Source: a bacterium (GTDB lineage Bacteria; Bacteroidota; Ignavibacteria; SZUA-365). From it: a DNA stretch of 64,000 nt. The DNA is taken from positions 350,882 to 414,881 of the forward strand of contig JAHLLD010000002.1 in the NCBI GenBank assembly GCA_020444325.1, written 5' to 3'. Of this stretch, positions 17,561-50,759 are shown piece after piece (within the stretch, counting starts at the first letter, position 1; every line of letters begins with the position of its first letter). The notes below the pieces were generated by a model that was not told where the DNA came from, did no database searches, and worked only from the letters and a program-made list of their open reading frames with translations. A program made the translations under genes and the position numbers.

Positions 17561-19294
17561 ATGCCGGAACATGACAGCACGTATCAGCTTCAGATTGCGG
17601 ATATGGAATTCGTCGTATGTGACGTCGAAACAACGGGGCTGAGTCCCGACCGCAACCGGATTACGGAGATCGCGCTCGTCCGATTACGGGGAAATCAGAT
17701 CGTCGACCGATACAGTTCTCTTATCAATCCGAAGCAGTTCATTCCCGAAGAAATTCAGCGTCTCACCGGTATAACCAACGCAATGGTATACGGCGCACCA
17801 CCGGCTGAAGACGTCATGTCCGAAGTGCGCAGGTTCATCGGCGATGCCATCTTCGTGGGACACAATGTGCGTTTCGATCGCTCATTTGTGGACGCGACGC
17901 TGCGCCGCTGCGGACTCGAACCCCTGCAGGTGCCGAATCTCTGTACCGCACGTCTTGCGCGGCGGCTGATCCCGAAGAAAAGCAAGAAAAACCTCGGCGC
18001 GCTCGCCGCCCATTTCAACATCCGCATTCGCAATCGTCACCGGGCGACCGGTGATGCAGAGGCAACGGCTGTCGTCTTACTCAATTTCATCCGGATCCTG
18101 GAAGAAGAGTTCGATACGCACGATGTCGGTGAGCTGCTCTCGTTTCAGAACAAGCAGATATACCGCATTACCGGTGCACCAAGGTATTTCACCCGGCTGC
18201 AGGACAATCTCTCCGAGCTGCCCCATGCACCCGGGGTGTACTTCTTCCACGACAGGCGCGGCGATGTGCTGTATATCGGCAAGGCCCGGGACCTGAAAGA
18301 ACGCGTCAGCTCGTACTTCTATCACAACATCGGGCATACGTCCAAGATCAGGCGGCTTGTGCGTGCCGTGCACGGCATCACCTGGAAGGAGATGGAGACG
18401 GAACTGTCGGCGCTGCTCAACGAGTCACGGCTGATCAAGCAGCATCAGCCCCCGTTCAATACGCAGCTGAAGCGCTACAGGAAGTATCCGTTCATCCGTA
18501 TCGATGTTGCCAACGACTGGCCCACCATTGGCTGGTGTTATGATATCGAGAATGATGGAGCGGATTATTTTGGACCGTTTCGTTCACGCTTTGCGGTGGA
18601 GGATGCGCTTGACAGCATCAACAAGCTCTTTATGCTTCGTGAGTGTGACGGCAATATCAAACCGGACGCCGACAATACCCCTTGCCTGTATCATGAGATC
18701 AAACGCTGTGGCGCGCCGTGCGCGGCAGTGACGGGAAAACCCGAGTATCAGCGGGAAGTCGATGACATCGTGCTGTTTCTGCAGGGAGAGCAGGACAGCG
18801 TTCTCGACCGCCTGCGTGGACGCATGGAAACGCGCGCGGAAGAACTCGATTTCGAAGGGGCAGCAGTGCTGCGTGATCGCATCGCCGCAGTTGAACGTAT
18901 TATCCGGCAGCAGCGCCTGATGGTGCAGTCCGTGCGCAAGCAGAACCTGGTGATCATCACCCTCGCGCGGCGCAGCAACGTTGACGTGCATCTCATCAAA
19001 TCGGGCATGCTCGCAGCGCAATTTCTCGTCGATCAGAAATCTCTCCCCGAAGTATTGCTGCATAACAAGATCGAAGATGTATTCTTCTCCCGGCAGGAAG
19101 AGCTGTTCCAGGGCCGCAAGGAAGATATCGATGAAATGCGCATCATCGCATCCTGGTGCCTGACGCGGCGGCATGAGTCCACCATCGTCGAAATCCTTCC
19201 TGAAGACACGATCGAAAGTGCATGCGAACGAAGTGCGGAAGCCATACGCAGCGCCGGTCAGTGCGATGCAGCCAAGCAGGCCGACAGCGCCTGA
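17561..19294 (+). CDS. DEDDh exonuclease / GIY-YIG (UvrC-type) nuclease fusion
   Basis: This 577-residue protein joins two nucleases. Residues ~12-175 form a DnaQ-like DEDDh 3'-5' exonuclease with Exo I 'DVETTG', Exo II 'GHNVRFDRSF' and Exo III 'HRATGDAEAT'. Residues ~215-300 are a GIY-YIG domain ('GVYFFHDRRGDVLYIGKA.DLKERV'), as in UvrC/Cho. A UVR-like helical pair ('RAEELDFEGAAVLRDRI') lies near residue 430. UvrC's C-terminal RNase H-like and HhH domains are absent, so it should make only a Cho-type incision plus exonucleolytic trimming. The architecture is known in several phyla and is associated with DNA repair. Final residues are Ala/Asp-rich and unremarkable. Confidence 0.9.
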   Translation: MPEHDSTYQLQIADMEFVVCDVETTGLSPDRNRITEIALVRLRGNQIVDRYSSLINPKQFIPEEIQRLTGITNAMVYGAPPAEDVMSEVRRFIGDAIFVGHNVRFDRSFVDATLRRCGLEPLQVPNLCTARLARRLIPKKSKKNLGALAAHFNIRIRNRHRATGDAEATAVVLLNFIRILEEEFDTHDVGELLSFQNKQIYRITGAPRYFTRLQDNLSELPHAPGVYFFHDRRGDVLYIGKARDLKERVSSYFYHNIGHTSKIRRLVRAVHGITWKEMETELSALLNESRLIKQHQPPFNTQLKRYRKYPFIRIDVANDWPTIGWCYDIENDGADYFGPFRSRFAVEDALDSINKLFMLRECDGNIKPDADNTPCLYHEIKRCGAPCAAVTGKPEYQREVDDIVLFLQGEQDSVLDRLRGRMETRAEELDFEGAAVLRDRIAAVERIIRQQRLMVQSVRKQNLVIITLARRSNVDVHLIKSGMLAAQFLVDQKSLPEVLLHNKIEDVFFSRQEELFQGRKEDIDEMRIIASWCLTRRHESTIVEILPEDTIESACERSAEAIRSAGQCDAAKQADSA

Positions 19295-19342
19295 GCTTCC
19301 TCCCACGTCAATTTTATACCGTTTTACTGCTTCTCCAGGTCT

Positions 19343-19441
19343 GAATTATGCAGAAAGTGCATAATTCCGCCGCGTGAATTATGCAGAAAGTGCATAATCC
19401 TGACGGGCAGGATATGCAGAAACTGCATATTTGCATTGCCG
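19343..19441. repeat. Three palindromic units at 33-bp period
   Basis: Three inverted repeats are centred at 19355, 19388 and 19421, exactly 33 bases apart. Unit 1 has 10-bp arms GAATTATGCA/TGCATAATTC around GAAAG. Unit 2 has 8-bp arms around the same loop. Unit 3 has 8-bp arms ATATGCAG/CTGCATAT around AAA. Linkers between the palindromes differ. The array lies between a plus-strand gene and the terminator of a minus-strand gene. A fourth copy matching unit 3 occurs inside the M4 peptidase gene at 50030-50050. Confidence 0.8.
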
Positions 19442-19447
19442 GGATGC

Positions 19448-19476
19448 AAAAAAAACCGTCCCGCAATGCGGGACGG
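19448..19476 (-). terminator. Intrinsic terminator for the minus-strand barrel gene
   Basis: Read on the minus strand, CCGTCCCGC pairs perfectly with GCGGGACGG around a 3-nt loop and runs into eight T residues. It lies just downstream of the 19508-21133 gene. Confidence 0.9.
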
Positions 19477-19507
19477 CTTGTATGGAAGGGGATTTTGATC
19501 TTTCAGG

Positions 19508-21133
19508 TCAGAACGGACGCGTGAAGCGCAGGACGAAGTTGGGCGATTCGTCCCTGTCGAGCCGCCAGGAAGCACCGATGCGAAAATCGCCGGAGGCGCT
19601 TCCAAGGGCAACGCCGATATCGGATTTCCAGTTGTTGAGCACGAAGTCGTCAGTCATGTTGACGTCGTACGCTCCGCGTGTTACGTCCGTGAGCTCGCCG
19701 AGCAGCGGGGAGGCATTGTTCGTTGAACCGGCATTACCGAAGAAAATAATATTGGTGTTCTTCAGAATGTTCTTTGCCCAGCCGCGGGCGTTGCCCACGA
19801 TGCTGCTGCGGACGATGAACTCCGCACTGAGGAGCATGACATGACTGCCGGCGAACTCCTTGAAGCGATAACCCGGGAGTGTACCGGGTCCGCCGAGTTC
19901 GAAGGCGCGCTGCTGCGGTACCATGCCGTCGCTCACTCCTGCACGGGCGCGCAGGTTGAGATTCAGATGCTCACCGAGGGGCTGATAACGGCGCACGGAA
20001 GCCGTGATCTGCGAAAACTCGAAATCACCGGCGGCGAATCCGCCCGCCATCTCGTACTGTAGCTGTGCATCCCAGCCGTGTCCGCGATCGTCAAGGCTGG
20101 CAAGTGTATTGAAGCCTGCGGAAAACACCATGCTGTTGACGTTGCCATCGTTGATGGCCGGGTTGTAACGAAACTGCTTGTCTCCTCCGAAGATCGACCA
20201 GTTGGTCTCCCGGTTCATGTTCCCGTAGGTATCATGCACATACCCCGCACTTGCGCGCACATTGATGCCCGCTTCATTGCGGTAGTACCATGCAGCGGAA
20301 ACCGTGAAGCCTCTGCGCTCGAAGTAATCGAGATAATCCTCGCGTGCGATCAATGCCGTCGCCGTATTTTCATCACGGTCGAACGCCCACTGGTCTTTCG
20401 AGTCCGTCAGGCTGTATCCCTTTCCGCCGATCTCGATGATCTGATCGTCAAGATAGATGGGGAAATACATCCCGAGGCTGTAGCGCCAGGTATGATTGGC
20501 GAATCCGTAGCCGAGGGAAGCCGTGCTCACGAGCCAGGGTTTGCTGTGCCAGTACAGGCGCTTGGGCTGCGCGAGTCCGAGATACAGTCCCTCAACCCTG
20601 TTGTAACGGAGGAAGCTCTCATGAAGACGTGACATCATGGGGAACATCCACGGGAAGTCTCCGGGATATTTTTTGAAGAAGGTGTCCTCAAGATCAAACT
20701 CGTCACCATCTTCATCGTCTTTCCACCACGACCATTCGCTGTCTTCTTCATCCCATGAGCTGTCGTCTTCCCAGGAGCTGTCATCCTCCCAGGAACCGTC
20801 ATCTTCCCATTCATCCTCATCCCAGCTATCGTCAGATGTGTCGTCGATGCTGCGCTCGAGTGCTTCGAGGCGGTTCTCGATGTTGCTGATCTGCTGTTCG
20901 AGGGTGGCGATGCGTTCGTCGCGTTCCGCACTCTCGGGCTGTGACTCGATGCGTTCCAGTTCTGCATTGAGTCCGTCGAGTTCCTGGGTCAGCTTCTTCT
21001 GTTTGAGCTGAACTTCCTGCACTGCACGCAGACTGTCTTCCGCCGCAGGATCCACCTGCGCGAGCGCCGGTGTTGCCACGGCAAGCAGCAGGAAGAGCAG
21101 CAGCAGGGAAGGGATCGGTACAAAATGTTTCAT
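19508..21133 (-). CDS. Coiled-coil / acidic-repeat / Omp85-like barrel protein
   Basis: The 541-residue protein has a signal peptide (about 1-26, ending ATPALAQ), a predicted coiled coil (about 32-96, heptads such as 'LEQQISNIENRLEALERSI'), an extremely acidic Trp-rich stretch (about 97-150) with repeated hexads DDSSWE, and a C-terminal beta-barrel. The barrel includes 'FELGGPGTLPGYRFKEFAG', the pattern of Omp85/BamA and two-partner transporters, and ends in Phe. No POTRA domains are evident. It is probably an outer membrane protein with a periplasmic coiled-coil arm. Function is unknown. It is the last gene of a minus-strand group. Confidence 0.75.
   Translation of the reverse strand: MKHFVPIPSLLLLFLLLAVATPALAQVDPAAEDSLRAVQEVQLKQKKLTQELDGLNAELERIESQPESAERDERIATLEQQISNIENRLEALERSIDDTSDDSWDEDEWEDDGSWEDDSSWEDDSSWDEEDSEWSWWKDDEDGDEFDLEDTFFKKYPGDFPWMFPMMSRLHESFLRYNRVEGLYLGLAQPKRLYWHSKPWLVSTASLGYGFANHTWRYSLGMYFPIYLDDQIIEIGGKGYSLTDSKDQWAFDRDENTATALIAREDYLDYFERRGFTVSAAWYYRNEAGINVRASAGYVHDTYGNMNRETNWSIFGGDKQFRYNPAINDGNVNSMVFSAGFNTLASLDDRGHGWDAQLQYEMAGGFAAGDFEFSQITASVRRYQPLGEHLNLNLRARAGVSDGMVPQQRAFELGGPGTLPGYRFKEFAGSHVMLLSAEFIVRSSIVGNARGWAKNILKNTNIIFFGNAGSTNNASPLLGELTDVTRGAYDVNMTDDFVLNNWKSDIGVALGSASGDFRIGASWRLDRDESPNFVLRFTRPF
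20744..20815 (-). repeat. 18-bp tandem repeats encoding acidic DSSWED hexads
   Basis: About four imperfect 18-bp units (plus-strand units such as GTCATCCTCCCAGGAACC) sit inside the barrel gene and encode Asp/Glu/Ser/Trp hexads. The recurrence at DNA level suggests slippage-type expansion. Confidence 0.7.
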
Positions 21134-47633: not shown

Positions 47634-50600
47634 TTACTTGAGATACAGCATCTGTTTGGTTGTCGTTGTTTCGCCGGCACTGAGACGTACGAAGTACACG
47701 CCGCCGGGCAGCGTCATCCCTGCATTATCCCGGCCGTTCCAGCGCAGTACATGTGTTCCTGCCGGGAACACTTCGTCGGCAAGGATGCGAACTTCACGTC
47801 CCAGCATATCGTGCACGCTGACGCGCGCATGCATGCTGCGTGCAAGCTGCAGGGGAATGCTTGTCGAGGGATTGAATGGATTCGGGTAATTCTGTCCCAG
47901 CACAGGCCGGTCGGGCAGAGCGGCCCGTGTGGCTTCGACGGCAACGGGACGCTGACCGGTGCGGAACCAGACCGGTGCCGTACCGGCGAGGACGAAGCCC
48001 TGCGGGTCGCCCGCAGGCGTGATACCGTCTACTTCCATCGCCACGTTGTAAATCACGTTGATGTCCTGAGACAGACCGACGAAGGAAATCATGCTGTCAT
48101 CACCGTTATAGGTCGGATACCCGTTGGTGCCGAAGGACGCCTGTGCGACAGTGACGGGCTTGCCTTCGAGGAGATCCATCGCGACGACGTACGCTTCGGA
48201 TTCGCCGGGGTACTGCACGTCGAATGCGATGACTGTTGGCTTCGTGCGCGAGTAAATGGCGTTGCCGATGTTGACATCGGGATCCTGCGGGAAGATGCGG
48301 TCTATGCGTCCCGTCCCGAAATTATCCGCTTCCATGTCCCACACATCCATGACGTTGATATCCCAGAAGCCGAGAGCCTGACCGTTGTACTCGATCTCAT
48401 TGTAGGTATCGAAGAGGAGGGTACGGCTGTCGAGACTGAAGTCGAGCGCGTCGGGGAATTTTGCGACGTTGGGGACGGATTCGCCGCTGTAGTTCGGGGT
48501 GTACACGTCGAAGGATTGTGCGACAGGGGTTGCGCCGGAAATGTCGAGGATGTAAACCTCGGGATTCAGAAGCACTGTGGTCACGGCCAGAAGATTCTCA
48601 TCCTTGCTTATCGCAATACTGTTCCACACTTCGGAGTTGTCGATGACCTGCTCGTTCGGCGGACCGTCGAGCGCAATGGCACGAACGTTGTAATCGGTGT
48701 CCACGAACACGGCCACCGTGCCATCGTCGGTGATGCTCGGACGGCTCCACACTTCTGTAAAGGAAACAGAGGAAAAATCATTCGGTCCGCCCGGCGGTGT
48801 CACGATCCAGAGCGGTGCCGGGAGGAAAGGATCGGTGTTGACAAAGAGCATGCGATCGATACCATCAACGGGAGGATAGTCCGTCGGATCACCGGTGGGA
48901 TTCCCATCGGTGATGCCCACCTGGTCGCAGGCGCTCGCGCAGGCGTCCGCTTCCGTCTGCGTGTACAACTCCTGCGCGGAGCGGATGATGGAGAGGCGGA
49001 AGTCGATGAATTGCGATTGCCTGGTCAGCTTTGTGGAGAGCGCATCGTAAAAAATGTGTTCCGCCTTGTCGCGGCCGATCGCTTCGCTGAGCAGATAGGC
49101 TGCGTGATTGATGATGCCGCTGTTGATATGTACACCGCCGTTGTCCACATTTTCCGGGAGTGTGACGAACTCATTCATATGCTTTGGCTGCCATGCAGCG
49201 ATGCCCTGCGTTCCGCCATTATGCGGATCCTGCATATCGCGCAGCGCACCATTGGGAAACTGCGAACTCGTGCGTGTGACTTCCTCGCCGATCAGCCAGT
49301 CGTCACGATCGACCATGGCCGCAAAGATATCGCTGATCGCTTCGTTGAGTGCGCCGGACTGATTGAGATACTCGAGTCCCGCCGTGTGCTCGGTGACGCC
49401 ATGCGTCAGCTCATGCGCGGTGACGTCGAGTGCGCGGGCGATGGGATCGAACACCGTGCCCCCGTTACCAAAGGCCATGAACTGTCCGTTCCAGTATGCG
49501 TTCTCCATCGACTGACCGCCGTCGGTGACATTGACGATGGCGTAGATCGTCCCGCCCTTGCCGTCGATGGAGTTACGGCTGTGGGTGGAGAGGTAGTATT
49601 CGTAGACAACGCCAAGGTTGGAATGCGCGGAGACACTCGAAGCGTCGCCCCAGCTATTATTGCTCGACTGGAACTGCGTAATGTTGACGAGGTCGCTGTT
49701 ATTGGCGTTGAGCGTGACAATGGCGCCAGCCGGAGAATTCGGAAATACAGACGCACCGGCATTGAACATCGTACGCGACGCATCGATCATGTAATAATTT
49801 CCCTGGTGCAGGTACGTGTCGATGGTTACGTCATTCCCCGCCAGGTCTTTTGCCGTCGCCTTCTCGGGACCGTCTGCGCAGGTGTAGTTGTACCCGCGTA
49901 CGACGCTGCCGTCGCGCGCGTCGACGAAAATGCGCCAGCGTGCAAGCGCATCCGTACGCATTTCCACGACCCAGACGGGACGCAGCGTTTCGGCTTCCAT
50001 GAGGTAATTTCGGGTGGTGGTCGGACCAGAATATGCAGAAACTGCATATTTCCCCGCCTCAAGCTCATCATGCACTCCGCGAGCCGCGAGCCAGCTGCGG
50101 GCGGATTGCAGTGCGTTGTCGCTGCCCTGGAGAAACGCTTCTTCGGTATGCAGGGAGGACGGCGCGTAGCGCCCCGTGAAATAATCGAGGTCACCCAGAG
50201 GAGTAAATCCGCAGACCACCTCGCCGCCCCAGACGGGGATGCCCTCAATTTCCTGACGGTAGCGCAGGTGGGTGCGTCCGTTTTCTGTGTGCAGGACGGA
50301 GCTGAGGACAAATCCTGCAGCCTCCGGTTCCAGTTTCAGAAGCGAAGCAAATTTTTGGAAGAATATCTGTGCGGTTCTGTCATGCAGTGCGGCATCGGCG
50401 TTGAAAGTCCCCATGGAGTGCTGCAGCACGGAGCCGCTCATGGCGAGGGGGATGCCATAGCGATCATCCCATGAAACGCGGAAACCGGGAACGATGCCGC
50501 GATGCTCTCCATAGGCGAGTATCTGGTCGATATCGAGCCCTGCGACATTCCACAGCTCAGGCGCCGTGCGCAGGACGCGGTTCGATTCTTTCCAGTCGCC

Positions 50601-50759
50601 ATAGCGCGCACCGAGCGCGGACACGCGATCAATGGTGACATTACCTGCGCTGCTGTGCACCGCCACGGTTTCAGCTTTCCGATGCTGCGCATGCAGTGTT
50701 GAGGACAGCATCGCAGTTGAGATGAGAACGAGAATCAAGAGTGTCGAAAAGCGTGCCAT
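47634..50759 (-). CDS. M4 (thermolysin-type) metallopeptidase with T9SS sorting domain
   Basis: I use ATG 50759, preceded by AAGGAG, with a signal peptide ending TLHAQ. The ~1041-residue preproprotein has an FTP-like propeptide, then an M4 catalytic domain with zinc motif 'HELTH' (about 449-453), third ligand Glu in 'NEAISD' (about 473) and the usual 'HINSGIINHAAY' histidine. After it come propeller-like PD40-type repeats. The last ~85 residues ('GQNYPNPFNPSTSI ... GGVYFVRL') are a T9SS type A sorting domain. It is a secreted endopeptidase. A copy of the dispersed palindrome lies inside the propeptide coding region. Confidence 0.92.
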   Translation of the reverse strand: MARFSTLLILVLISTAMLSSTLHAQHRKAETVAVHSSAGNVTIDRVSALGARYGDWKESNRVLRTAPELWNVAGLDIDQILAYGEHRGIVPGFRVSWDDRYGIPLAMSGSVLQHSMGTFNADAALHDRTAQIFFQKFASLLKLEPEAAGFVLSSVLHTENGRTHLRYRQEIEGIPVWGGEVVCGFTPLGDLDYFTGRYAPSSLHTEEAFLQGSDNALQSARSWLAARGVHDELEAGKYAVSAYSGPTTTRNYLMEAETLRPVWVVEMRTDALARWRIFVDARDGSVVRGYNYTCADGPEKATAKDLAGNDVTIDTYLHQGNYYMIDASRTMFNAGASVFPNSPAGAIVTLNANNSDLVNITQFQSSNNSWGDASSVSAHSNLGVVYEYYLSTHSRNSIDGKGGTIYAIVNVTDGGQSMENAYWNGQFMAFGNGGTVFDPIARALDVTAHELTHGVTEHTAGLEYLNQSGALNEAISDIFAAMVDRDDWLIGEEVTRTSSQFPNGALRDMQDPHNGGTQGIAAWQPKHMNEFVTLPENVDNGGVHINSGIINHAAYLLSEAIGRDKAEHIFYDALSTKLTRQSQFIDFRLSIIRSAQELYTQTEADACASACDQVGITDGNPTGDPTDYPPVDGIDRMLFVNTDPFLPAPLWIVTPPGGPNDFSSVSFTEVWSRPSITDDGTVAVFVDTDYNVRAIALDGPPNEQVIDNSEVWNSIAISKDENLLAVTTVLLNPEVYILDISGATPVAQSFDVYTPNYSGESVPNVAKFPDALDFSLDSRTLLFDTYNEIEYNGQALGFWDINVMDVWDMEADNFGTGRIDRIFPQDPDVNIGNAIYSRTKPTVIAFDVQYPGESEAYVVAMDLLEGKPVTVAQASFGTNGYPTYNGDDSMISFVGLSQDINVIYNVAMEVDGITPAGDPQGFVLAGTAPVWFRTGQRPVAVEATRAALPDRPVLGQNYPNPFNPSTSIPLQLARSMHARVSVHDMLGREVRILADEVFPAGTHVLRWNGRDNAGMTLPGGVYFVRLSAGETTTTKQMLYLK
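50030..50050. repeat. Dispersed palindrome inside the M4 peptidase gene
   Basis: AATATGCAG and CTGCATATT form a perfect 9-bp inverted repeat around AAA. Twenty bases are identical to the third unit of the 33-bp-period array near 19.4 kb. On the coding strand it encodes Y-A-V-S-A-Y (residues 238-243 of the peptidase). Confidence 0.75.

Follow-up and report, generated by a model that had tools for sequence, protein, structure and literature searches.

Arrays of a strict palindrome at three-helical-turn pitch across a bacterial chromosome: candidate stations of a dimeric, possibly Lrp/AsnC-type, protein

Results

The array and its surroundings

The window, the whole 64 kb stretch of DNA that was analysed (G000:C2:350882-414881), belongs to a genome of 4.65 Mb in 25 contigs (G000) and carries a 99 bp array of three palindromes placed where two convergent genes face each other with their 3' ends (Table 1). 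The palindrome cores occupy positions 19348-19362, 19381-19395 and 19414-19428, with start-to-start distances of 33 and 33 bp, which reproduces the exact period and the centres (19355, 19388 and 19421) of the first-pass annotation of this DNA. The middle bases are GAAAG in units 1 and 2 and GAAAC in unit 3, and the upstream flanking gene, a DnaQ/UvrC-like fusion, stops 53 bp before the first core. A fourth copy had been assigned to a peptidase gene, in which Peptidase_M4 and M4_C domains were indeed identified; the stretch that it has in common with unit 3 amounts to 21 bases (50031-50051), close to the 20 reported. The window contains four exact cores; when up to two mismatches are allowed there are five, compared with 0.21 expected, and none of 100 shuffles reached five.

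Table 1. Coordinates of the array, its neighbours and related features (window positions, unless a contig is given)
Feature	Position	Strand	Remarks
DnaQ-like exonuclease fused to UvrC-like GIY-YIG and UVR part (flanking gene)	17561-19294	+	domain matches
Unit 1, 17 bp palindrome TATGCA-GAAAG-TGCATA	19347-19363	+	symmetry extends over 19343-19367
Linker 1, 16 bp	19364-19379		no kinship with linker 2
Unit 2, TATGCA-GAAAG-TGCATA	19380-19396	+	
Linker 2, 16 bp	19397-19412		
Unit 3, TATGCA-GAAAC-TGCATA	19413-19429	+	
Terminator-like inverted repeat adjoining the array, separate element	19453-19479		13 bp arms, 92% complementary
Omp85/DUF5686-like outer membrane protein (flanking gene)	19508-21133	-	3' end toward array
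M4 peptidase gene holding the fourth copy	47634-50759	-	Peptidase_M4 and M4_C domains
Solitary copy within the M4 peptidase gene	50032-50048 (core 50033-50047)	+	minus-strand reading in frame, KYAVSAY
AsnC-family gene of G000	G000:C13:43804-44013		PF01037 match

Genome-wide occurrence and anatomy of the sites

The exact core ATGCAGAAASTGCAT occurs 209 times in G000 and pairs of TGCAN5TGCA (any five-base centre, at most one mismatch) exactly 33 bp apart number 88; the reversed-pattern controls gave zero in both cases, and the genome-wide count, which had been put forward as a check against random expectation, is clearly not random. Among the matches listed, all 50 of the 33 bp pairs are free of mismatches, and 79 pairs in the genome combine full TATGCA arms with a gap of 13 to 17. 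The arms are all-or-none and almost invariant: 90 sites with perfect arms and six with one mismatch were found in 654 kb, compared with zero and one, respectively, in the reversed sequence. The consensus derived from 110 oriented sites, AWTATGCAGAAASTGCATAWT, has sharp edges, background being reached within about two bases, and its centre is mostly GAAAC, GAAAG, GAATC or GAATG, with the central three bases all A/T in 104 of these sites.

Neighbouring sites less than 200 bp apart are spaced by exactly 33 bp in 42 of 50 cases. The 12 other spacings of up to 130 bp fall preferentially near multiples of 10.5 bp (P = 0.001), a phasing that weakens to P = 0.016 when the spacings of 142 and 176 bp are included (14 spacings); a spacing of 66 bp was left out of this test because it spans an intermediate unit. 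The proposal that a protein may bind such sites cooperatively on one face of the DNA is therefore well supported at the level of sequence. The linkers differ, as had been noted for the window, and are unrelated both within and between arrays: the mean similarity of adjacent linkers is 0.298, compared with 0.271 for unrelated ones, and only two of 73 values lie at or above 0.58. Tandem duplication of a 33 bp unit was rejected on this ground, except for one array (L353) with two linkers that are 83% alike. Arrays consist of one to four units, which are oriented alike in 30 instances and oppositely in 14, a distribution that a symmetric dimer does not explain. The genome-wide array system is real and striking, most likely protein-bound, and apparently undescribed, no account of such arrays having come up in searches of open-licence papers on palindromes at regular spacing, on REPs of Bacteroidetes, on uptake sequences and on palindromic sites three turns apart.

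Placement on the chromosome

Gene context was taken from simple gene calls (89% coding) in stretches chosen for containing sites, not for their gene context, and sites were located with the loose pattern ATGCAN5TGCAT, some of whose solitary matches inside genes may be due to chance. Of the 59 arrays or singles defined in this way, 34 are intergenic and 25 lie inside genes, where readable frames yield peptides such as NMQKLHN and YAETAY. The intergenic arrays comprise 11 in convergent, 17 in co-directional and six in divergent gaps, which make up 10%, 59% and 32% of the intergenic bases, respectively; convergent 3' ends hold more arrays than their share of the intergenic DNA, and divergent starts fewer. 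Their clusters are also spread more evenly than random, with a coefficient of variation of 0.70 versus 0.95 (sd 0.11; P = 0.002) in a test that took 100 of the 209 sites (contigs C1-C4) and one variant array. The density is about one cluster per 30 kb and, estimated from 27 clusters on 712 kb, the chromosome would hold roughly 150 stations; no large-scale bias was seen between contigs C1-C4 and the remaining contigs.

Other repeats were encountered on contig C1. Two parS-like TGTTTCACGTGAAACA sites lie 45 bp apart (L344:8616-8676, G000:C1:648616-648676) and are followed, in the same long gap, by three solitary palindromes (C1:648763, 648905 and 649081). Hairpin arrays of the opposite design, with variable GC-rich stems and a constant GGTGTT (or AAGAAC, AACCAC) linker, are located at L335:1-60 and 1920-1990, L337:19010-19150 and L339:8410-8670.

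Relatives and origin of the sites

The core was found in only three of 40 relatives, namely G004 (six cores), G001 (two) and G010 (one), and G004 is the only one of four congeners with clear copies. The G001 copies and several of those in G004 lie in genes and are devoid of the outer T/A pair; three G004 loci resemble true sites or small arrays. In the small arrays of G004 (L453:7100-7210, L454:1280-1360 and L456:5830-5910), palindromes about 50 bp apart have a half-site, TTATGCAAAA, between them. As to conservation in close relatives, the 33 bp spacing is not kept at the same loci, since most relatives are without sites; two Rhodothermales species that share a 31 bp version do keep the spacing.

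When five in-gene singles with GAAAS-type centres were aligned to orthologues, four showed no length change and one a difference of two residues (L021:688, with a centre of another type, the multi-unit in-gene arrays and the poorly aligned L304 and L311 were left out of this comparison); at one such site, LAYAESAYAL in G000 corresponds to REYAGSAYAV in the relative G002. At the three-unit array L351, in a convergent gap, about 100 bp between the stop codon and the terminator are absent from the sister species. The length evidence on insertion versus substitution is mixed: most of the in-gene singles compared keep their length, and the L351 array adds about 100 bp. Whatever mutation is available therefore seems to give rise to sites, inside genes mainly substitution, rather than the insertion of one element.

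The sister species G001, in which neither an AsnC protein nor arrays of the G000 palindrome were found, carries a different palindrome, ATGTCACCRGGTGGTGACAT. Its roughly 20 copies form about ten clusters with spacings of 24 to 51 bp, some of them located at gene ends and behind stop codons, and the clusters are helically phased (15 spacings, P = 0.003). No comparable phased palindromes turned up in the parts sampled from two other genera, G005 (259 kb) and G008 (460 kb). Further repeats were observed in the genus. An AT-rich palindrome, TTTTAGG-N4-GTTAAAA, occurs genus-wide at a pitch of 22-23 or 32 bp, for example at L340:2077 (G000) and at L321:6958-7040, L322:14757 and L330:15493 (G001), lies 32 bp from an ATGTCAC palindrome in G001:C12 and G004:C165, and is probably an ordinary promoter operator. 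The repeated G001 hairpins CCCCACGCTCACGCGTGGGG and CCACACGCTTACGCGTGTGG (L325:14697 and L323:17791-17960) have a REP-like look, and a related repeat, CCACGCAGAGCGTGGGGACGATG, is present in G000 near C1:206800.

Outside the phylum, XRE-HTH plus MNT-type nucleotidyltransferase genes of Clostridia and Erysipelotrichia are closely preceded by a TGCAN5TGCA pair with a spacing of 33 bp, or in one case 31 bp (loci L059, L062, L063, L079, L100 and L105), probably as autoregulatory operators. A phage origin was rejected, the exact 17 bp palindrome being found once each in nearly all of the 90 viral stretches holding it and as a pair in three; ATGTCACCNGGTNGTGACAT was found in no viral sequence.

The 31 bp version in Rhodothermales

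A scan of 395 phylum genomes revealed pairs only in G000 and in four genomes of one Rhodothermales genus. The Rhodothermales units display the same arms and A/T-rich centres (central three bases all A/T in 49 of 52 sites), and form pairs exactly 31 bp apart that lie 31 to 83 bp from each other, at near-multiples of the helical repeat; the off-standard spacings are phased (six spacings, P = 0.0003). The sequence shared across lineages does not establish common descent, since the search pattern itself selected it.

Between orthologous arrays of two Rhodothermales species, the arms differ at 14 of 252 bases, the loops at 11 of 105, the linkers at 86 of 306 and the flanks at 179 of 1367 (P = 0.0004 for arms compared with flanks), and there is one gap in the linkers and 73 in the flanks. 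These alignments demonstrate selection on arms and spacing in this genus. Arm changes are one-sided in 38 cases (20 breaking the pairing and 18 giving G-U) and two-sided in one, with no sign of a selected hairpin. Arms and spacing that are kept while linkers diverge, together with one-sided arm changes, point to a double-stranded protein site. The Rhodothermales arrays lie mostly between co-directional genes (16 of 24), a placement that is no help in deciding between architecture and promoter control.

Discussion

A strict palindrome of 17-21 bp, with half-sites one turn apart and a three-turn repeat, fits a dimeric helix-turn-helix protein with dimer-dimer contacts, and the Lrp/AsnC family is the best fit among those known. 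Lrp-type sites are described as 5 bp half-sites flanking an A/T triplet; they follow one another at two or three helical turns, all on the same face of the DNA, and about 100 bp are wrapped around three dimers (PMC4046817, PMC2995911). According to the same sources, Ss-LrpB recognizes a 15 bp palindrome, TTGCAAAATTTGCAA, and three of its dimers bind three sites cooperatively, with wrapping (PMC4046817, PMC2995911). The arrays likewise have a 13-15 bp palindrome of the format TGCAR-W3-YTGCA, with 5 bp half-sites around an A/T centre, and several sites at a pitch of three helical turns; an AsnC protein is encoded in the genome. The Ss-LrpB consensus agrees with Rhodothermales units at 10-13 of its 15 bases and with G000 units at only 9-11. 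Exactly one protein with an AsnC_trans_reg domain (PF01037) is encoded in G000, and one in each of five Rhodothermales genomes.

We therefore read the palindromes, with about as much belief as doubt, as architectural stations: double-stranded sites for one dimeric protein of the helix-turn-helix kind, for which the single Lrp/AsnC protein of G000 is the likeliest candidate. Each site of 17-21 bp would take one dimer, the half-sites TGCAG and CTGCA (5 bp) flanking a 3 bp A/T centre; neighbouring dimers, three helical turns apart and on the same face, would touch each other, and each row of three dimers may wrap or bend about 100 bp of DNA. Standing mostly outside promoters, such stations would play an architectural, boundary or transcription-roadblock role rather than act as classical operators. 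The convergent bias, the divergent depletion and the even spread point away from promoter control and toward architecture, insulation or roadblock, and a DNA-wrapping, architectural role is the more likely of the two. The first-pass annotation had spoken of a possible regulator or nucleoid/segregation site; of these, the nucleoid side is favoured.

The identity of the binder is the part of this reading against which some observations count. An AsnC protein is also found in six of eight examined genomes without clear arrays, including the congener G003, so that encoding one is no predictor of arrays. The AsnC gene has no perfect site closer than 50 kb in either of the two Rhodothermales genomes with perfect sites fully listed, which argues against an autoregulatory operator of the perfect-site kind there. 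The same palindrome pair, 33 bp apart, precedes XRE-family genes in some Clostridia, which indicates that other HTH families use the TGCAN5TGCA motif. Two other candidate binders were rejected: PadR, with no PF03551 match in five genomes of the genus, and the clostridial XRE and nucleotidyltransferase protein, for which eight genomes gave only weak partial matches.

The arrays might form an ordinary but very large promoter regulon, in which a transcription factor (LysR, XRE, Lrp or another) would use them as operators to control adjacent genes. LysR operators have a T-N11-A format, which TGCAN5TGCA fits, and LysR tetramers occupy a pair of sites separated by some three turns. One 31 bp pair lies 44 bp from the start of a LysR gene in each of the two Rhodothermales species compared; no relative of this LysR was found in the G000 stretches examined. 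The clostridial XRE genes with a pair in their own promoters and the co-directional position of most Rhodothermales arrays would also suit such a regulon. We nevertheless consider it unlikely, as G000 arrays favour convergent and avoid divergent gaps, 25 of 59 arrays or singles are inside genes and no common theme was apparent by eye among the flanking genes. RNA hairpins at gene ends, terminating transcription or stabilizing mRNA, are a most improbable explanation: every unit can fold and many arrays lie at 3' ends, but arm changes break pairing as often as they give G-U, with a single two-sided change in 39, the sites are helically phased, some arrays stand between divergent genes, the window array has a separate terminator-like repeat beside it and positions 18800-20000 contain no Rfam family above the gathering score.

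Decidedly unlikely, too, is a selfish or REP-like palindromic repeat without host function that spreads by transposition or templated copying, much as the small mobile palindromic repeat entertained in the first-pass annotation. It would account for more than 200 near-identical copies in one species only and for a convergent and co-directional bias such as that published for REPs; the array that fills about 100 bp between a stop codon and a terminator, in DNA absent from the sister species, also runs counter to a non-mobile reading. Against mobility stand the unrelated linkers and flanks, which are not carried along with the sites, and the four of five comparable in-gene singles that show no length change; no conserved GTAG or CGTC tag accompanies the 110 sites, and the sole Y1 transposase match (PF01797, taken as a test for RAYT) has no copy within 1.5 kb. 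Copying of units would not give an exact 33 bp spacing without homologous linkers, and helical phasing and conserved spacing likewise speak against it. Uptake signals of DNA import are known from Neisseria and Pasteurellaceae, and a signal of that type, enriched by biased import, would suit the near-perfect copies, the even spread, the in-gene gain by substitution and the different motif of the sister species; it is very unlikely, since known uptake signals are far denser than about one cluster per 30 kb and exact three-turn arrays would be left unexplained.

The reading of the palindromes as sites of a Lrp/AsnC-type protein may be extended, though this is doubtful, to some 150 evenly spread stations for DNA wrapping, each with one to four palindromes at exactly three helical turns, through which one Lrp-type protein would partition or insulate the chromosome. 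Related species would use other palindromes (ATGTCACCRGGTGGTGACAT) or another pitch (31 bp), sites and protein would change together and the set would be rebuilt largely by substitution in place. If true, all sites of a DNA-wrapping protein could be located exactly and counted on a bacterial chromosome, the role of a Lrp-type protein as a site-specific chromosome organizer would become testable site by site, and a whole set of binding sites would have been replaced between sister species in nature.

Comparison with known systems

The G000 arrays share with CRISPR-type repeats palindromic repeats of constant pitch and unique spacers. Unlike the clustered identical repeats with spacers of about 20-60 bp that define CRISPR, they are dispersed arrays of one to four units with 16 bp linkers and mixed unit orientation. 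With REP and BIME elements they have in common more than 100 palindromic copies, restriction to a species and a location in convergent and co-directional gaps; unlike these elements, they display neither a GTAG/CGTC tag nor a flanking RAYT, and have unrelated linkers at an exact pitch, helical phasing and frequent in-gene copies. Simple insertion and membership of the CRISPR and REP classes are not supported.

The sites of Noc, SlmA, MatP and parS are strict palindromes scattered over the chromosome inside and outside genes, as are those of G000, which differ in sequence and in forming multi-site three-turn arrays. Phage stoperators, such as those of mycobacteriophage L5, are repressor sites that lie scattered over intergenic gaps and stop transcription; the G000 sites are similarly dispersed in intergenic gaps, but lie on a bacterial chromosome, are symmetric and form phased arrays.

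The three-box operator of Ss-LrpB from Sulfolobus resembles the G000 arrays in its TGCA half-site, A/T centre, regular multiple sites and location away from promoters, most Ss-LrpB ChIP peaks in vivo being distant from promoters. The G000 system differs from it in being bacterial, in having 209 exact cores compared with 37 ChIP peaks, and in its near-invariant arms, one exact spacing and TGCAG half-site; and whereas the natural Lrp sites described are usually degenerate, those of G000 are not.
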